NCBI GenBank assembly: GCA_950295325.1
Contig: OX485804.1
Coordinates: 62,276,533 to 62,340,532 of the forward strand
Reading direction: 5' to 3'
DNA: 64,000 nucleotides
DNA from: Polytrichum commune
Lineage: Eukaryota > Streptophyta > Polytrichopsida > Polytrichales > Polytrichaceae
The position numbers were made by a program, and so were the translations under genes. This document shows positions 33,904 to 54,941 of the stretch, piece by piece; position 1 is the stretch's first letter; the number at the start of each line of letters is the position of its first letter. The notes under the pieces are model-generated. The model had not been told where the DNA came from, searched no databases, and saw nothing but the letters and a program-made list of their open reading frames with translations.

Positions 33904-33911
33904 TACCAAAC

Positions 33912-34139
33912 AAATGAACGGGGAGACCCGACCGCTAGTTATAGATGAACCAATTGAGTCTGAAAAATAACCGGTTGAAGTTCAAGACTTCAAAAAATGT
34001 ACCGATCGTTTTTTGAGGAATTGATAGAATATACCTCAACTTAATGAAGAAAAACCGAAGGATGTCAACATGTAACCGGTTGGACTTGGAAACACTAGGA
34101 TCTCGACCAGTGATGCTCAAAATCCTCCCCCCAACATTG
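33912..34139 (+). mobile_element. hAT-type MITE, copy 1
   Basis: 228 bp, flanked by a perfect 8-bp duplication TACCAAAC (33904-33911 and 34140-34147). The ends are AAATGAACGGGGAGA and the inverted CCTCCCCCCAACATTG. The interior carries repeated ACCGGTTGA-like words. Homologous to the three other copies. An 8-bp duplication and CAnTG termini fit the hAT superfamily; there is no coding capacity, so it needs a transposase from elsewhere. Confidence 0.85.
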
Positions 34140-34215
34140 TACCAAACATACAATTTCAATCTTTTGTTTCCATACAAACTTTGCAGCTGCAAGACCTAAA
34201 AGGGTAATCTATGAG

Positions 34216-34450
34216 CAATGATCGAGGAGAACCGGCAGCTAGTTACAAATGAACCGGTTGAGTTTGAGAAATAACCGGTCGAAGTTCAAGACTACATGAA
34301 AATTACCCATCATTTTAAAGGTATCTATACAAGAATATACCCCAATTTAATAAAGGAGAACCGGATCCGGAGGATGTCAACATGTAACCAGTTGGACTTG
34401 CAAACACATGAATCTCAACCGATTATGCCCAAAAATCTCCCCATTCACTG
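34216..34450 (+). mobile_element. hAT-type MITE, copy 2
   Basis: 235 bp, flanked by a perfect 8-bp duplication TCTATGAG (34208-34215 and 34451-34458). The ends are CAATGATCGAGGAGA and the inverted TCTCCCCATTCACTG. It lies only 76 bp after copy 1 and in the same orientation. Confidence 0.9.
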
Positions 34451-34458
34451 TCTATGAG

Positions 34459-34918
34459 TTGAATCAGTAGCTAAATGTGGAGTGATCGCCGACAAGATAT
34501 TAAACTCTGCATGGCATGTATGTACCAACACTTAAAAAAACATGAATCATTGATGGGTTTTTGTAATGTGGGATTGACTTCAATCCTCGAATTTAAGCAC
34601 ATAAGTTAATGCTCCACATTTTGACTGAAGTCGGAAGTGCTTTGATATATGCTCGAGTTTTAGGGAACCGCCAACAGATGCTGAATAAATATCTAACATT
34701 TACTACACTGGTTAAAAGCCCGATTGCATGTTACGATTCGGAGTTACGCAGTGCCATAACGTTTGACTTAGGAGTTCAATTTTACTAACGAAAGTTCAAC
34801 AGGTTGTTTGCATATAATAAAACGTTAAGGACTTTGCGTGGTAGAATGTGACAAGGTCATTGATTAGTTGTAGCATTGTGTAACTCCAAGTAGTAACACA
34901 CACTCATTGGGATAATCA
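34459..34918. other. Non-coding stretch
   Basis: No gene or clear repeat is seen between the hAT MITE and the family A MITE. Confidence 0.5.
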
Positions 34919-35422
34919 GGGCCACTTCACACACGAAACTGAGAGCCCGTGACCATTACACTTCAAGCACTCTCATTGGTGGAAAAGGCGGAGCCTGTCC
35001 AAGTTTGCTTTACACTACACTTGAGGGACCAATGGAGTATATAAGTGAATGCAAGGTGGATGTAATGTTGACATGGATTCCTACATGGCATCAAATGGAC
35101 CACGTTTCATGGTCACTTGGATTATTTTTAAAACACCACCTCTTGGAGGTAGGCCTAGCACAGAACTGGGATACCATGGCACTCCGAATACTCACAACTG
35201 TTGGTTTATTCTATTTTATCATGTGTGAGGGCCCGCATGAATAGAAATTCATTGAAATAGCATTTGGTTGAGGGCCCGGTCACATATGAATTCACACTAC
35301 ACTTGAGGGTCCGTGACCACAATACATGATTTCGGAGGTGTTTTGGGACGGCCTTTGGGCACTTTCTTTTGGGCTCTCACAATTTCATGGTCACGGCTCT
35401 TGGGTCGTGTGTGAAGTGGCCC
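34919..35422 (+). mobile_element. MITE family A, copy 2
   Basis: 504 bp, GGGCCACTTCACACACGAAAC to the inverted CGTGTGTGAAGTGGCCC. The flanks are TCA and TGA rather than TAA, so the duplication has mutated or the insertion was atypical. Full-length match to the copies at 13201 (inverted) and 51281 (same orientation). Confidence 0.8.
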
Positions 35423-38400
35423 TGAGTGTAGTAGAGCATCCCATCACAATCAGAATAGAATGTGAACGGAAGGTACCCTAAATTGAAGAATGTTATTGGC
35501 ATAACATAAATCAAACGATATTTACCAAGCTTTTATGAGCCCTCTAAACCTGTGGGGAAGTGTGCACATAAGTTAGACCTAATTCCATGGGGATTCCACA
35601 CTGAGCACTAGATTCGAAGACTGAATTTAGGGTGAAATGAGATGGCCACAAACCCAAATTAGTGTGTCAAGTTTTAATGTCTTGTGGCTTGTCTACCACA
35701 ACTAATGCTTAGGGTTTGTGTGAAATTTGGATGGAGCATTGACCTACCAATCCGCTCAATTAAACCTAGTGTATTGCCCTTCATGCTATGAAAAGAAACC
35801 ATATGATTAGATGCGTCTCTAGTACCTAAACTACAAGACCAAATCATGTGTTCATCATATATTTATATTTGATATTGGAACTGAGTATTGCAATGATGAA
35901 CAATATAGACGCATCACAAACCCTTTATTATTGCCCCGGCGGCCGCTCAGGGGTGGGTATGTATTTATTATAATGAATTATAAGGCATGCTCATTTTCAA
36001 AATAATGGTAGATTGTTGTATGATTGATTTAATGGTATCCTATATTACTTGTATGTAAAGAAATTCCCCAATTCTTCAAAGTCCTTGAAGTGAAGTGTAT
36101 GATTAATTACAAGCCTCAGAAGAAGCACATACAAAACAAGGGAAAACAAGCAAACTATAGGGTTCAAGGTTTATGGTTTGAAATCACTGTCAAGTATGTG
36201 CAAAACAACATAGTAGTATTTTAATAACAACAATAAACTGCATGTACATTTCATGAACAAAACAAAAAAAATAAAAAAAATAGTATTGATTAACACAATT
36301 TAAGGGGTTTAAAAATTATGGCGTAGTTTGAGACCTTGATGTCATGCTTCAAGGCCATCCATATGTCTCTAAAAGTCACAAAGTTCCCACATGCCCTACA
36401 AAAAATGGTCTATATATGATGTATCCACATATATTTAGCAGACACCTACCAAAGCATCTGAAGAAGTCTTGTAGATCGCGCATGTCCTCCACTAAGAGAT
36501 TTTCTATTGCAATCGAAAACGCGGGTCACGTGTAAATTTGAGTGACCAACATTTAATGTCGAGTCGGTGCCGATACATACCATTCAAGGTTTCAAATCTT
36601 TTTGATGCCAACTTAAGATTTAGCTGATTACTCATTCCACATTGATTCAACTCAAGAAATCAAGCCTTGCAACCTTGGTAGGCATCGTTTGATGTTTTAG
36701 TCCGATGTGAGTATGTTGATATGTGAATTTAGAAGTTCGTGGTGACAGCAATTAACGGTTGTTGACAAATTTTCTGGACATAGAAATTAACAAGCACCAT
36801 TGACAACATGACAATCTTATTAATTCCATTGCCTCTAATTTCCATGTGCACTCTACCAGTCAGCTCGATACGTTTCTGCAATTCAATGAGACTTCTAAAA
36901 TTATCACAAAATGCAAGTGTTCAACTTTTTGTGTTGAGCCTGTTGATACATGAACCCTGCTTCAGGACTCAATAACTTTCCACTACCTAATCTTTGCATT
37001 TAGACGTCGATTCATTCAACATTGATTCAACACATATTTCAAACTTTTAAGTATTGCAACAAGAATAGGTTAGAAACAAAATGCTATAACTGCAGCTCTG
37101 TGTTTGGTGGGTATCGATATTTCAATGTTGTAGTTTGATGTGATCGAATCAATGTGAAATCAGTTTGAGGAGACATACATGCTTATTCTTAGGAAAGTTC
37201 GAAATTGATGTGTTCGGAAGCTTGAAACGGACACAAAGAATCTGAGCTGAAACCCACATGAATTTTGTCATTGAACTCAGGTTTATGCTTTGATTTGATG
37301 TAATGTTTATGCTGCCCTTGTCATAAACTACTAGTGTTGTGCATAAAAAGGAAGGGCAACTGACTGAGATAGGTAGTTTAATTTGAGAAATTTCTTTCCA
37401 ACTAAATTTCCTGTTGTGAAAATTGTAAGGGCGTGATAGAAATTATGTTGTTTCTTGACGAGGTACATATATTGACCAACCCTTATAATTTGTTTCAAAA
37501 AGAAGAAGCAGGTTTGGTTACATGTTGAGTTCAAAAGTAGTGTAAGATTTTCTGTGAAGTTTAAGGTGGTTACATTGAGATGAATCGAAGGGAGTATTTG
37601 GCGAATGCACATAATTTGGGTGACGACTTCTAATTGTACATGGAAGAAATCCAAGGCTACATGTATGCTTTAATAAGGTGAACAACGGCCCTACATATTA
37701 TAAAAAATAAAATGGCCCCTTATTTATGTTTGAAGTCTACAAATGGCCACACACACCACAAGCTAATGGGGGAGTTGCTTACGTGTTGAAATTGGCTACA
37801 CCAAAAAAAAATTGCACTAGCCCCTTAAACCTTTGGAGGCTTTCAAGTTCAACTAGTCTGCAAATGTATGAGAGGATCAACATGCACATATCATACATTC
37901 AAAGCACTTAGCAACATCTTAGGCCAACAAGTGTTGCACCAACCCTCTTAAATATCAATGTACACCAAAATTGAACCAGTTTGCACACATAAAAGATGAT
38001 TAGCATTGAAACATTATACACTTGAAGTACCTAATGCATTTGGACTACACCCAAAAAATTTGGACCAACCCACCGACAAGAGAATACACCCATAATGAAC
38101 AATATTGCTTCAAAAGACCACTCTTACAATCACACATAAAAGTACAAATAGGTAGGGAGGGAGGTTGGCACCTTCAAGCACCACTAGTGCGTTCCACTTC
38201 GAAACTTGAAATGGGGTACACACAATTTTTTTTTAAACTCCACTACAATCAAAAGGTGGGGCCATCAATCGCCACTACATGAATAAAGAGGCTACAAGGT
38301 ACATGTTGAGAGAGCAAACAGGGTGGCGACCATAGAGGTGGAGAATGAATGAGGAAGTGGCAACACCACTCACCCCACCCAACTAAACCCTAAGCGACAT

Positions 38401-38734
38401 GAGCCCTTGGATGGGAAGATGGGCTCCATTCACAACTCATAGTGGAGCTCATAGGCTACTCCCAATAATGGAACTTCGAGGTGGGTCCTAATTTTTAGGC
38501 AACTCCACTCCACTCATGTGAAGCTAGTTGGTGCCATCTCTTACCCACAAAGAGATAAGGGTAAAGGTATGGGTAAGGATGTGTGTATAAATCAATTCAC
38601 TTCACTGTAGCAAAGTGACTACTAGTAGCCGGAAACTCATTACTATTGTTTTCATCAAAACTCCATTGCAAATTGAAATTGTAGAAAGGCCTGAGCATAA
38701 GTATTAATATTCTAATAGTTGACCCTCCCTAGAT
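35423..38734. other. Long non-coding stretch
   Basis: No gene is seen in 3.3 kb. The longest frame (37331-37654, minus, 107 codons) lacks motifs. There is no obvious tandem or inverted repeat. It may be the oldest spacer in the window. Confidence 0.5.
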
Positions 38735-39720
38735 ATAGCAAGCACTCTTAGGCATGTGTTAAGACGATCTCTTTCTATTCTAGATTCAAGAATAAAATTC
38801 CGAGGTTCTTGAATACATGCATGAACACCGAACAATCAAGTGGCAAGCTCTTATTAGTTGACAACTCGCTGTTGATGCACAAAAACCTTCTTCCATCTAC
38901 CAAGATTCAATTGAAGAGACCGAACGCCCCCAACAGAGTGGTTCTTTTAGTGTTATTTGAATTACTTGAGAATTATTCCATTTGCATTGGAGCCTAAAGA
39001 GGCAACTAATCCAGAATGTTATGGATCGTTTCAGCAGGTTTTCGGAAGTTGTTCCAAAACTAGACAGTTGCAAACAACACACTTGTAAATCGGCCGTGAC
39101 CAATCTATGATGGGAGCTAGATTAGATTGAACATGTCCAGTCAACAACTAAGCAGAATTCTGAGACCATCTTGTTTGAACTTCGAGGTCAGGATTTCTAC
39201 TCTACCAGTGGATGTACAATAATTTGGAAGAGAATTCGGTACAACTACTACTTTAGGGAGGAGGAGTGCAATTTGTACCTCAAATTGTGTCTGTAAGTGG
39301 TGGGCTGTATTGCCGTCGTACTTTACACAACTCTCCCGAAAAATCAGCAACTCATTCAAGCACAAACTCCCAGAGCCTTGGATCTGTGCTAACTTAATAT
39401 CTGTGGAGTGAACATGGACCGTATCATTTGAATGCACATGCTTAAGTACTAGCCTAATCAGGTTCCAATGCAAACGGAATAATCAGTTAACCTAGAAATG
39501 ATTGTGGACGAGCCTCTTCAATTGAATCTTAGTACATGGAAGAATGCTCTGTTGTGTCCAAAGAAGAAAAACCCAACAATGAGGTGTCAACTATTGATGC
39601 CACTCGACTTTGCTTGACACTCATGCATGCACTCGAACACCTTGATTCTTGAAAACTTAATCTTAAAGCTAGAATAGAAAGAGAATGTCCTTCTACTTAC
39701 TTAAGAATGCTATATGACAC
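38735..39720. mobile_element. Long-TIR element (MULE-like or fold-back)
   Basis: About 240 bp at the left (38735-39000) recurs inverted at the right (39445-39720). Matched words include TCTCTTTCTATTCTAG, AGATTCAATTGAAGAG and TTTGCATTGGA. The ~440-bp centre is unique and non-coding. Long terminal inverted repeats around a non-transposase centre fit a non-autonomous Mutator-like or fold-back element. I could not identify a 9-bp duplication. Confidence 0.6.
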
Positions 39721-39852
39721 AAGCTTTTGAACCTCACAACTTCTAAGATATGGACTTATTCGTGGTAAACGATGTGAATTTACAATGTACACACATGTAG
39801 AAGTGATATAGATAGGATGTATAAGAGCACCACGATATAAGGTTCTGTATGT

Positions 39853-40224
39853 GGGTGTTATTTGATTACTTTTCTATATTGGACACCTTAATTTTTTCGA
39901 TTGGTGTGCGGTTAGGTAAGGAGTAAAGACCGAACACCATAAAAACACATGTTGGAAAGAGATTGGACTACCTCTTCAAATTTTTATCAACTACTTCACA
40001 CTCAATAGTGAAGATAATTGGCAGGACTTATGTATTTGATCAAAAACCAACAAACATCATGCACTTCTAATATGCATAACTAAATCATGGGAGGTCTCAT
40101 TCTCAATTTTCTTTTTGTTGGTATTTCATCATATCTTTGCTAATGCAACACAAATTTGAGGACGTAAATCTAACCAATAATAGATGGAGAACAAGAGAAA
40201 CAAACCGAATGTCACCTGGCACCC
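39853..40224 (-). mobile_element. MITE family I, copy 2 (empty site)
   Basis: Read on the minus strand it matches 31933-32430, including GTGTTGCATTAGCAAA and CACTATTGAGTGTG, but lacks the family F insertion. The ends are GGGTGTTATTTGATTAC and CACCC. Confidence 0.6.
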
Positions 40225-40934
40225 ACATAACTCAAATCATACATTTGAACCTTGTATACTTTTCGGAAAGGGGAGACCACTGCAGGTGAGGTACTTTAAA
40301 TTGAAGTTGTCAGAGTCAAAGCAATCTCGGTAGTGGGATTCCAATTGCAAGGACACAGAGAAAGGTACTGTAGTACTCACTTGATTAAGTTACCTCATGC
40401 AGAAACTTCCTCGTTTATGTCTTGTCGTGTGTCGAAAATATCTGTCCTCGAGGAAGATTCATCTTTCAAGACTGGCTATCGAATGTTGCAGGAATTTGCA
40501 CTTCACAAAAATATCTGAGAGCGGTGTTGCCATGAGTGGACGAAAATGCTTCCTGGGAGCAAAGTTCGTACTTATAAAGTCCTCAAGAAGAATGCTCTGT
40601 GTCGATAAGGGAACATGTCCACAGTACATCTAAGTATGTGAATACAGCTTATGCAGAATTGGGTCCCTGCAGTTAGGGTTTAGGGTTTAAGGTTTAGCTT
40701 GTATTTGTTAGCTAAAAGTCTGATTAGACATGTCTCTGCCTAACCCAAATGTCCTTGTCATCTCTGAACTGGTTCCAGCTAATCACATCATGACATGTGG
40801 CATTGCTCCGTCATCTCCTTTTCTCTGCAATACCTCTGACATGGGTAAGTGAGAGTATGATCCCATTAGCAAAAATGAGGCAGCCATGGACAAAATTCAG
40901 AGCAGCTGCATACTCTTCTTTCAATTGTTCATTT
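40225..40934. other. Non-coding stretch with telomere-like words
   Basis: No gene is seen. TTAGGGTTTAGGGTTT lies at about 40674-40689. This is a short interstitial telobox-type sequence that plants often carry near promoters, but nothing downstream looks like a gene. Confidence 0.5.
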
Positions 40935-41090
40935 CATTACAAGCATATGAATCCTAGGCAATTGACCTACGTCACTGGAAACTTGTCCAATGTAACTGAA
41001 AAATTTGCAAATTCAGCACTGGAATAGATTTGCATTGGTCTTTCATGGATGTGGGATGATTGCATAGGACTCATATGCGCGCTAGTAGTG
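40935..41090. mobile_element. CACTA-like mini-MITE family F, copy 3
   Basis: It begins CATTACAAGCATATGAATCC and ends ATAGGACTCATATGCGCGCTAGTAGTG. It matches copy 2 throughout (GTCACTGGAAACTTGTC, GATTTGCATTG). No clear 3-bp duplication. Confidence 0.65.
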
Positions 41091-41898
41091 ATTGCTTGTC
41101 AACATTGTTCTTCATCAGGATCGACTGGGTAGATTCTGCAAATGTGAGTTATGCCTAAACCTAAGGTTCGTTTTATCAACTTGGCAGATGTTCTGAAGAT
41201 TCGGGGGATTGTGGAAGTGCTAGCGAAGCCGGAGGTGGAGATCTTTACACCAATTACCACGCCATTCTGCCACACAGGGTGACCACTTAATCTGAACATT
41301 ACTTGCATGCAATCATAGATCATAGTGACAAGTCTAAAATCCTTCTGGGATTGTACCGAAGGTTTTGTAAAGGGTTGATGCACCTGACATGGCATAGTAC
41401 ATGCGCCATTTTCAGGCCTCATTTACAAGTGCGGAGAGATATCATGATGTTTACAAGTTTACAATATTTTCTACTAGAGCAACCCATGAAGACCAAAATA
41501 TTGCTAAGCTCCAGACTCACTATTACTCCCCCCATCAGGTCATTCCAGCATAAAACTCTAAGCCTCTTCGACCTCGTTGGTAAGAAAGTTGTGGTCACGA
41601 TATATGTAAAATAAGAACACTGGATCGCAATCCGCTCGTCTTGCAAGCGAAGAAGCTGCAGGTCAGGAATTCAGTAGTGGGATGGAAATAGTTTTTCGAA
41701 CAGCAATTGACGCGTCGTTATCTGCATCATCGCCCCAAGCGCAAAGATGGGTAATTAAGACATGCATCCGAGGGCTATGCATTCCACTCTATGCAAACCA
41801 TATGGGGATGGACACAGCAAAGCCATTCGCATTTTGCACCCTCGCTGTCTCATTCTGATGCCCATCATATGCAATGTCGGTGATTTGGTCCTTTTGAG
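41091..41898. other. Non-coding stretch
   Basis: No gene is recognisable. Frames on both strands at 41099-41646 overlap one another and have no motif. Confidence 0.45.
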
Positions 41899-42038
41899 CT
41901 TCCGAACGAAGGGCCATTTCTGATGTGGCCATTGACAAATCGTCACAAAAAAATGTTGGTCACTCTGGTCATTTTGAGCTTCAGAATGAGTGACCATTTC
42001 TGAATGTCTGGTCATTCTGGTCTCACTTGAACAACATC

Positions 42039-42269
42039 CAATGAGCAGGGAGAACCGGCTGCTAGTTACAGATGAGCCGATTGAGTTTGAGAAATAATCG
42101 GTTGAAGGTCAAGACTTTGGGAAAACTACCGACCATTTTAGAGGAGTTTAGAGAGAACATGCCTCAAATTAATAAAGCAAAAACCGAAAGATGTCAACAT
42201 GTAAGCCGCTTGGACTTGGGAAGCGCTGGGATCTCGACCGATTATGCCCAAAATCCTCCCCGGACACTG
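42039..42269 (+). mobile_element. hAT-type MITE, copy 3, inside the tandem array
   Basis: 231 bp, flanked by a perfect 8-bp duplication ACAACATC (42031-42038 and 42270-42277). The ends are CAATGAGCAGGGAGA and the inverted TCCTCCCCGGACACTG. The array unit continues on both sides. Confidence 0.9.
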
Positions 42270-42729
42270 ACAACATCTGAAGTCATTTATTTCAAGTGAG
42301 CTTCAGAATGAGTGACCATTTCTGGAAAAAGCCAGGCGAAGGCCATTGAGAAATGGTCGCACAAAAATGTTGGTCACTCTAGTCATTTTGAGATCCTGAA
42401 GGAATGACCATTTCTGAATTTATGGTCATTCTTGTCTCACTTGAACATTGACATTTCTGAAGTCACTCATTTCAAGCGAATGAGGGACTATTTCTAAAAG
42501 AGGCCGATAGAGAAGTAGTCAGACAGAAATGTTAAACACTAGATCATTTTGAGGTTCAGAATGAACAACCATTTCTGAATGTTTGGTCATTCTGGTCTCA
42601 CTTAAAGTATCATATATGAAGTCACTCATTTCAAGCGAGCTTGAGAATGAGGGACCGTTTTCTTAAGTGACTATTGAGTAATGGTAACACAAAAATATTG
42701 GTCACTCTGGTCACTTTGAGGTTCAGGAG

Positions 42730-42953
42730 CAGTGTCTGAGAGATTTTTGGGCATAATCGGTCAAATCCTAGTGTTTCCAAGTCCAACCGGATACATGTTG
42801 CGATCTTTCAGGTTTATTTTACTAATTTGGGGCACATTCTATAGATTCCTCTAAAATGATCGGCCATTCTCCTGAAGTCTTGAACTTCAACCGGTTATTT
42901 CTCAAACTCAACTGGTTCACCTGTAACTAGTGGTCGATTCTCCCCGTTCATTG
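42730..42953 (-). mobile_element. hAT-type MITE, copy 4, inside the tandem array, inverted
   Basis: 224 bp, flanked by a perfect 8-bp duplication TTCAGGAG (42722-42729 and 42954-42961). It is in the opposite orientation to the other three copies. The ends are CAGTGTCTGAGAGA and the inverted TCTCCCCGTTCATTG. Confidence 0.9.
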
Positions 42954-43081
42954 TTCAGGAGTGACCGTTTCCAAATGCTTGGTCATTATGGCACCACTTG
43001 AATAAGATGTCTGAAGTGACTCACTTCAAGTGAGCGTCAGAATGATTCAAAAGCTTCATATGTCTATGGTATGGAACAATG

Positions 43082-53852: not shown

Positions 53853-54941
53853 ATGGAGGGCGGCAGCAGCAGTAGTTCGGGAGAAGCACAGATCAAAAGT
53901 TTTAGACCTATCGATATGCCATCCACATCCAGAGCACACTATGAGGAATCTCCACCAACTCCGAAGGAACATTTTCACAGGAGTGACAGTGTGCCTAGGC
54001 TGGAGGATTTGATAGCCGGGGACTCGAGGCTTGAGGAGCTGTATAATGGTGATCCAGCCCCTTCGAAGCAGACCATACATGAAGAAGATGACGATGACGA
54101 TGACGATGAGAACATGCGTCATGGCGATGATTTCAATTCACAGGTTAGGTGCTGCCCTCAAGGGCATAGCCTTGGGTTTTTGGCTGAGCCTCCATACTTA
54201 CAGGGGGCATTTGTCTGCGATAAATGTAGAAAGGGTACTTCAGGTCCAGTTTACCATTGCCAGCTCTGTGAGTTTGATATTTGTTCAAGTTGTGCATCCA
54301 CATCGTCATCTACATCAACATCACATTCCCTCCCTGTGATTGATTCTACATCTACACCATGGCCGAGTGATGTGCAAGAGACATCAGAGAGGTGTCCACC
54401 ACTTCTCAATTGTGGGGATGTTTCCCATTCTTTAGAACTGTTGCCACGTCCCCCATACCCTGGAGGAACGTACACATGTGATTTATGCTTGAAGGAGGGG
54501 GAAGGGCAACATTACCATTGCACGTCATGTCGGACTTTTGACCTTCACCCGGCCTGTGCAAGGATTACAACAGAGATCAAATCGTTTGCCCATCCCCATG
54601 GATTGGTCTTACAACCCCCTTATAGCCGCGGTGCAAATGCTATGTGTGATGGATGCCTGGAGGGTTTGGGTAGCTCACAATGGGTGTATAGGTGTAGTGT
54701 AGGGTGTGACTTTGACCTTCATGCTCTGTGTTCCAAATTGGCTCAGAAAATTCGTCATCCTATCCATCCAGAACATGAACTTATTCTGCATGACCACTCG
54801 GTTCCGGAACCATACACGAATGTCGCGTGTGACGGATGTGATTACAGTATAGACCCGAGAGAACTCGTGTATCACTGTGATGACTGCGGGTTTGATCTCC
54901 ATCCATCGTGTGCCATAGGTCGGGGCATCTTGAGGAGCTGA
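53853..54941 (+). CDS. DC1 (C1-like zinc finger) domain protein, four modules, 362 aa
   Basis: The ATG at 53853 is the first after an in-frame TGA at 53829, and the frame then stays open for 362 codons to TGA 54939-54941 without an intron. The N-terminal ~95 residues are Ser-rich and end in an acidic tract (D79-D85). Four C1-like modules follow, each with the order His, Cys-x2-Cys, Cys-x(2-3)-Cys, His-x2-Cys: H105/C122/C125/C136/C139/C147 with Cys144 where His is usual; H192/C209/C212/C223/C226/H232/C235; H249/C265/C268/C281/C285/H290/C293; H308/C326/C329/C342/C345/H350/C353. The repeated FDLHPxC and PPY signatures are typical of plant DC1 (CHP-rich) proteins, which bind zinc and are often linked to stress, hormone and developmental responses; the exact role here is unknown. 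No signal peptide or membrane segment is visible. The protein ends only nine residues after the last ligand. This is the best-supported gene in the window. Confidence 0.95.
   Translation: MEGGSSSSSGEAQIKSFRPIDMPSTSRAHYEESPPTPKEHFHRSDSVPRLEDLIAGDSRLEELYNGDPAPSKQTIHEEDDDDDDDENMRHGDDFNSQVRCCPQGHSLGFLAEPPYLQGAFVCDKCRKGTSGPVYHCQLCEFDICSSCASTSSSTSTSHSLPVIDSTSTPWPSDVQETSERCPPLLNCGDVSHSLELLPRPPYPGGTYTCDLCLKEGEGQHYHCTSCRTFDLHPACARITTEIKSFAHPHGLVLQPPYSRGANAMCDGCLEGLGSSQWVYRCSVGCDFDLHALCSKLAQKIRHPIHPEHELILHDHSVPEPYTNVACDGCDYSIDPRELVYHCDDCGFDLHPSCAIGRGILRS

Follow-up and report, generated by a model that had tools for sequence, protein, structure and literature searches.

A newly documented hAT MITE family in Polytrichum commune and its partner elements with a DUF4371 transposase gene

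MITE copies at the locus

The analysed stretch of Polytrichum commune DNA (64,000 nucleotides, positions 62,276,533 to 62,340,532 of contig OX485804.1 in assembly GCA_950295325.1; hereafter the window) harbours four short repeats of a newly documented family of miniature inverted-repeat transposable elements (MITEs) of the hAT superfamily. The family belongs to a familiar kind of mobile DNA, and a partner family of larger elements was identified for it in the same genome. The four repeats are very probably non-autonomous elements that were mobilised by the transposase of this DUF4371 partner family, which has the same ends. Their coordinates, their lengths and four distinct perfect 8-bp target duplications had been given in a preliminary description made from the sequence alone, and all of them turned out to be exact on rechecking:

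MITE copy 1: 33912..34139, + strand, 228 bp, 89% identical to the consensus (consensus positions 2-218), 11.9% divergence; exact 8-bp duplication TACCAAAC at 33904..33911 (left) and 34140-34147 (right), longest repeat 8
MITE copy 2: 34216..34450, + strand, 235 bp, 86% identical to the consensus over the full length; exact 8-bp duplication TCTATGAG at 34208..34215 (left) and 34451-34458 (right)
MITE copy 3: 42039..42269, + strand, 231 bp, 87% identical to the consensus over the full length; exact 8-bp duplication ACAACATC at 42031..42038 (left) and 42270-42277 (right)
MITE copy 4: 42730..42953, - strand (inverted), 224 bp, 87% identical to the consensus over the full length; exact 8-bp duplication TTCAGGAG at 42722..42729 (left) and 42954-42961 (right)
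Diverged tandem array hosting copies 3 and 4: 41873..43045, + strand, found by self-comparison, with pieces 71-88% identical except for one exact 28-bp piece

The longest exact direct repeat measures 8 bp at each end pair of the four copies. A scan of the whole window with the family consensus (E<=1e-3) returned precisely these four copies and no fifth one. The common end formula proposed in the preliminary description holds in part, as six of the eight ends fit CNNTGNNCGGGGAGA with at most one mismatch while decay has gone further in copy 1 at the right end and in copy 4 at the left end (in window orientation). A foldback hairpin or structured RNA was considered and rejected: copy 2, the sole copy folded, was no better than its shuffles (z 0.33).

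The array hosting copies 3 and 4 consists of units of roughly 165-180 bp (GTCACTCTGGTCATTTTGAG...) and was not reported at 41873-43045 by Tandem Repeats Finder. Its units permitted an empty-site test, in which each copy was removed together with one duplication and the joined flanks were aligned to other array units. The closed site of copy 3 aligns across the junction with the units starting at 42383, 42544 and 42959 (98/117 columns for unit 42544), and that of copy 4 with the units starting at 41918, 42345 and 42507 (94/120 columns for unit 41918). The empty sites in the array are not base-perfect: the alignments with units 42544 and 41918 each have a 3-base gap close to the junction, and longer gaps occur with other units. 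Since the closed flanks align across the junction with sister units, copies 3 and 4 represent insertions into older DNA.

The spacing of only 76 bp between copies 1 and 2 and the position of the other two copies within a tandem array might be taken to indicate that the four copies belong to a tandem or segmental duplication and are not separate insertions. However, no two copies share a target duplication, copies 3 and 4 point in opposite directions, the insert is absent from sister units of the array, and thousands of copies are dispersed over the genome (see below). An origin of the copies by duplication can therefore be regarded as ruled out for all practical purposes.

Copy number, boundaries and duplications across the genome

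The searches covered an assembly of 407.8 Mb in 64 contigs, nearly the whole of which is made up by seven contigs of 42-78 Mb. Following the proposal in the preliminary description to look for further copies and to measure their number, an internal 24-base probe was matched to the genome with up to 3 mismatches. It yielded 8,384 matches (4,148 forward and 4,236 reverse), while the reversed probe yielded 0. The family thus comprises, as a rough figure, about 8,400 copies, or one per ~49 kb and ~1.9 Mb at 226 bp each, a count in which old copies may be overlooked and truncated ones are included.

A similarity search with copy 1 scored 40 of 5,596 first-look candidates. The copies of the family that were fitted measure 224-236 bp. 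The consensus was built from 37 of 43 sequences, after exclusion of L009 and L030, in which an end pair was missing, and of the truncated or misfitted L022, L035, L037 and L038. The consensus sequences show the terminal repeat C(A/T)ATGATCGGGGAGA / CAGTGATCGGGGAGA. Terminal inverted repeats of hAT elements usually start with CA, and in the commonest exact-ended subfamily one side starts with CT, not CA. The exact 15- and 12-base ends of this subfamily, CTATGATCGGGGAGA and TCTCCCCGATCA, occur 190-220 bp apart at 185 places, compared with 0 in the control.

The first 40 of the 100 listed among these 185 copies, chosen by their ends alone, were used for assessing the duplications. Perfect 8-bp duplications were found in 25 of them, one mismatch in 8 and two to four mismatches in 7, so that 33/40 have at most one mismatch; random re-pairing of left and right flanks (1000 times) gave 0 perfect duplications. 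Among 39 similarity hits, 15 have a perfect duplication and 23 at most one mismatch, and two could not be fitted. In this second set the ends were picked with the duplication in the score, which slightly favours duplications, a bias of which the exact-ended set is free; copy 4 was misfitted by the rule and set by hand. In the light of the 25 perfect duplications among 40 copies, the four perfect duplications in the window are unremarkable. Poor duplications (at least two mismatches in 7/40 exact-ended copies; at least two, or unfittable, in 16/39 similarity hits) concern single copies rather than the family, and they are as expected of old copies.

The boundaries, which had been called exact in the preliminary description, are sharp. 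In 72 copies (nine of 41 fitted rows being excluded from the profile) the share of the majority base is 0.68-1.00 in the 15 bases inside each end, compared with 0.26-0.57 in the 15 bases outside, and no conserved region extends beyond the ends. The highest outside shares (0.56, 0.57) fall on target position 2, the next highest (0.49) on target position 7. The family is short, uniform and abundant, has inverted ends and is too short to encode a transposase, as is characteristic of MITEs.

Target-site preference

A set of 60 duplications with at most one mismatch was analysed for base preferences. Position 2 was T in 30/60 duplications and position 7 was A in 30/60 (background 0.287, P=7.7e-7); both bases occurred together in 14 duplications compared with 5.0 expected. 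The largest of 30 mirrored flank counts was 45, compared with 60 (of 120) for T2/A7. The target rule of the Buster group is nnnTAnnn; TA at positions 4-5 occurred in 2/60 duplications, so that this preference was not observed. The MITE duplications instead display the Ac-type preference nTnnnnAn. The pattern nTnnnnAn is followed by the targets of Hermes (PMC10368747) and is the mark of an Ac-family element, as stated for Ac and hobo (PMC8961557).

Divergence and age

Divergence from the 37-copy consensus amounts to 11.1-12.1% in the window copies; the 40 exact-ended copies are 6.1% away from their own consensus (5.6% at non-CpG and 11.5% at CpG positions). These values provide the measurement of divergence proposed earlier. 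Mismatches between the two sides of the duplications affect 27/320 positions (8.4%) in the exact-ended set, or 14/288 (4.9%) without the four copies having three or more mismatches. This corresponds to ~2.4-4.2% per duplication side and is below the divergence inside the elements. Since the duplications are less diverged than the interiors, part of the divergence seems to be older than the insertions, reflecting different source copies, or the interior seems to decay faster. The preliminary description had suggested recent or well-preserved insertions. The duplications in the window agree with this (0/32 positions mismatched, upper 95% bound 8.9%), whereas the distance of the window copies from the consensus does not.

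Larger elements with the same ends

The 3' flanks of hAT transposases were scanned for the MITE end, and the end was located downstream of a DUF4371 transposase. The partner elements found in this way are 3.7-6.6 kb long, share the terminal repeats of the MITE and contain a hAT transposase gene of the DUF4371 + hATC architecture. A transposase gene with the same ends, as had been sought since the preliminary description, is thus present in the genome, though every copy read looks broken. Six copies have both ends; four of them are flanked by a perfect duplication, one by a duplication with one mismatch and one by none:

C6:756853-763440: 6,588 bp, perfect duplication TCTCATAT on both sides
C2:64034834: 5,388 bp, both ends, perfect duplication TTTTGGTA
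C3:50893532: 3,731 bp, both ends, perfect duplication GCTCCCAT
C6:26595358: 4,615 bp, both ends, perfect duplication CCTCTCCC
C4:34627163: 4,481 bp, both ends, duplication with one mismatch
C7:30289654: 5,167 bp, both ends, no duplication

Identity of C6:756853-763440 to the MITE consensus is 81% over its first 63 bp and 90% over its last 21 bp. Another copy, L116, starts with CAATGATCGGGGAGA, and its last 15 bases are one base off the MITE consensus. C6:756853-763440 encodes a zinc finger (zf-C17orf113, 32.9 bits) and DUF4371 (34.1 bits) in a frame of 527 aa; a weak match to the dimerisation region lies in a stretch of 126 aa in another frame. A disturbed frame is likelier here than an intron because the interval between the two approximately equals the coding length between the same points in the relative L096. 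In L096, which is without MITE ends, the dimerisation region (PF05699) scores 26.1 bits and is above the cut-off. The architecture DUF4371 + hATC of the Tip group is hence present, with one of the two domains below its cut-off in each of the two proteins. The transposase core had no meaningful match in the Protein Data Bank (best E 0.68).

The association of the ends with a transposase gene is not confined to the copies listed. The 5' 201 bp of the partner have 41 matches in the genome (query included), 15 of which (14 elements) are followed by a transposase fragment on the same strand 1.5-17.9 kb downstream; within 20 kb, no such fragment lies on the opposite side or strand of any of the 41. 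With random placement, a mean of 0.11 such pairings and a maximum of 2 in 2000 trials were obtained, compared with the 15 observed.

These elements also bear on the assignment to the hAT superfamily. An 8-bp duplication alone is no proof of hAT, since P and Merlin elements, or Mutator-like elements with an irregular duplication, might account for it. Such an origin is nevertheless highly improbable, as the partner encodes DUF4371, its relatives contain the hAT dimerisation region, the T2/A7 bias of the targets is of the Ac type and no exact repeat at the window copies exceeds 8 bp. The hAT-type MITE of the preliminary description is thereby borne out by the 8-bp duplications, the sharp boundaries and the copy number, and chiefly by the transposase-encoding larger elements with the same ends.

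In the vicinity of the window, ~46 kb from its end, a degraded partner-type element with a 5' end and DUF4371-type fragments was observed (G000:C2:62386935-62391844), adjoined by a hAT dimerisation domain.

Subterminal boxes and proposed mechanism

The ACCGGTTGA-rich interior mentioned in the preliminary description can be resolved into a cluster of AACCGG/AACCGGTT boxes, which is common to the ends of the partner elements. The MITE consensus has AACCGG at position 15, AACCGGTT at 37, 58 and 162, and further ACCGA sites. When AACCGG and CCGGTT are tallied, with the palindrome AACCGGTT counting twice, there are 7 in the MITE consensus compared with 0.17 expected, a value reached by 0/300 shuffles. 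The two 300-bp ends of C6:756853 contain 5 boxes each (0.41 and 0.27 expected), its 4.8-kb middle contains 1 (0.58 expected). Enrichment is likewise seen at both ends of L114 and at the 3' end of L111, L115 and L116, and not in the middles.

Zinc-finger BED domains bind the short subterminal repeats of Hermes, pairwise on a quasi-palindrome and cooperatively (PMC10368747). By analogy with these repeats, the AACCGG/AACCGGTT boxes are most likely transposase-binding sites. The sharing of boxes in addition to ends between MITE and partner points to the same transposase for both.

In the proposed mechanism the MITEs carry just the ends and the subterminal box cluster, and the larger same-ended elements (3.7-6.6 kb, such as C6:756853-763440) would supply a transposase with zinc finger, DUF4371 and hAT dimerisation region. 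This enzyme would recognise the terminal repeat C(A/T)ATGATCGGGGAGA and presumably the AACCGG/AACCGGTT boxes, excise the MITE and reinsert it at an 8-bp staggered cut, which would leave the 8-bp duplication. Ends, boundaries, duplications, empty sites, copy number and same-ended elements with a transposase gene were observed directly; we infer from them that mobilisation of the MITEs was the work of the partner transposase and that this enzyme binds the boxes. Because the partner copies read look broken, the present activity of the partner family is probably low or gone.

More tentatively, and with rather more doubt than confidence, we suggest that the DUF4371-bearing, Tip-like branch may use the Ac-branch rule nTnnnnAn (here widened to nTYnnRAn) and that its zinc finger may bind the palindromic AACCGGTT boxes pairwise. 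If this is true, the thousands of MITEs in one genome would constitute a large target-site set for the DUF4371-bearing branch, and the Ac rule would appear ancestral and the Buster rule derived. Among the further papers listed by searches on the target preference of hAT groups, none was shown to treat Tip target sites, although an earlier report in print is possible.

Which transposase mobilised the MITEs

Several observations weigh against the DUF4371 partner family as the source of the transposase. In C6:756853-763440 the dimerisation region (PF05699) scores 20.3 bits, just below the Pfam cut-off of 21.4, and in L096 DUF4371 scores 27.8 bits and is below its cut-off of 32.1, the protein having been read only from inside the domain. 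The transposase frame is disturbed by stops, shifts or missing pieces in 9/9 end-bearing copies read. L106 is without a duplication, and L112, L113 and L117 have the 5' end and a transposase and no matching 3' end in the stretch read. L115 and L116 are poor in boxes at the 5' end (1 each, compared with 0.40 and 0.20 expected). The MITE interior (positions 64-205) has no match at E<=0.01 in six partner copies, only positions 1-63 and 206-226 matching the partner, so descent of the MITE from these copies through internal deletion is hypothetical. Finally, the partner searches scored 150/1,060, 40/1,095 and 119/700 candidates, and other families with these ends may thus have been missed.

These points leave room for cross-mobilisation, that is, a spread of the MITEs mainly by another hAT family tolerant of these ends, with the DUF4371 elements merely sharing the ends. 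It would be in line with an interior not derived from the partner copies compared and with the many other hAT transposases in the genome, as all 150 of the 1,060 dimerisation-domain candidates that were scored were above the cut-off. The transposase flanks sampled, however, argue against it. Six of 40 dimerisation-domain 3' flanks have a weak end-like match (at most 3 mismatches), and a consensus search of the flanks detected a real MITE in L063 only, where it is inserted downstream of the transposase, so that L063 was rejected as a partner. At L056 the matching sequence belongs to an 820-bp element described below, of which it forms the 5' end. The hAT family found in most of the 40 flanks was rejected as well, for at L051, L056, L063 and L071 its 3' end is ...GGGCTCTG or nearly so and the MITE end is absent.

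Among 12 further flanks (L083-L094) a look-alike with two mismatches occurs in 7, namely L083-L088 and L093. In L083-L088 (six of the seven) the look-alike TGTCCCCCAACATAA is not an element end because the homology between the copies continues past it. In the set of 15 DUF4371 hits, the MITE end lies on the correct strand and no farther than about 3 kb away in L095 and L106. In L099 and L104 an end-like match is present on the wrong strand, and relatives of ~60% identity with long open frames (e.g. L096 and L101) have no MITE end. Taking furthermore into account the boxes common to MITE and partner, it seems improbable that another hAT family was mainly responsible, and mobilisation by the DUF4371 partner transposase is the explanation we prefer.

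Other repeat families and a neighbouring gene

A second non-autonomous family of about 820 bp starts with CTATGATCGGGGAGAACCG, the same 5' end as the MITE. Three copies were read; a perfect 8-bp duplication flanks two of them (CTTGGCAT, AGCATAAC), and the remaining one is without a duplication:

L080 102-923: copy of the 820-bp family
L082 101-919: copy of the 820-bp family
L081 101-922: copy of the 820-bp family

Forty scored copies (query aside, with 845 first-look candidates) are 91-97% identical to the query, and the family is probably younger than the MITEs. L083-L088 represent a distinct hAT family with frames of up to 1,084 aa and with GAACCGGA and TGTCCCCCAACATAA downstream of the dimerisation region; one base is changed in each of the two motifs in one copy. 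Within the window, a 362-aa open frame at 53853-54941 contains four C1_2 stretches and a ZZ finger, as in a DC1-type protein.

Comparison with known systems

The link between a MITE family and a full-size element is often missing, and here a very abundant family is tied to full-size elements of the same genome. The shared AACCGGTT boxes provide a specific, testable prediction of transposase binding. Among the papers listed by literature searches on DUF4371 with hAT and MITE, and on plant hAT MITEs with Tip100, BuT2 alone was relevant; searching paper texts with the end and box sequences gave no relevant title among those listed, which does not show that the family is unpublished.

The subterminal repeats of Ac are AAACGG, and Tip100 of morning glory has the ends CAGGGGCGG..., unlike CAATGATCGGGGAGA here. 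The boxes of Hermes and Ac differ in sequence from AACCGG/AACCGGTT, for which binding is presumed. Otherwise Hermes is similar in having many short boxes beside its ends and nTnnnnAn targets (PMC10368747).

A close resemblance is seen to BuT2 of Drosophila, a member of the Tip group of hAT whose transposase comprises DUF4371 plus hATC (PMC3942097, as are the following statements on BuT2 and Tip100). Tip is named there as the third hAT group, and the plant hAT Tip100 belongs to the group including BuT2. By its own statement, this 2014 paper did not investigate the target preference of this branch, and the MITEs described here may serve as a large natural insertion-site set for this branch. BuT2 and its MITEs share with the present family the 8-bp duplications, the short terminal repeats and the DUF4371 + hATC transposase, and the short relatives of BuT2 likewise share the end regions of the full element. 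The hosts belong to different kingdoms. The two systems differ furthermore in abundance, with 24 BuT2 MITE copies reported in D. willistoni compared with about 8,400 copies in P. commune.

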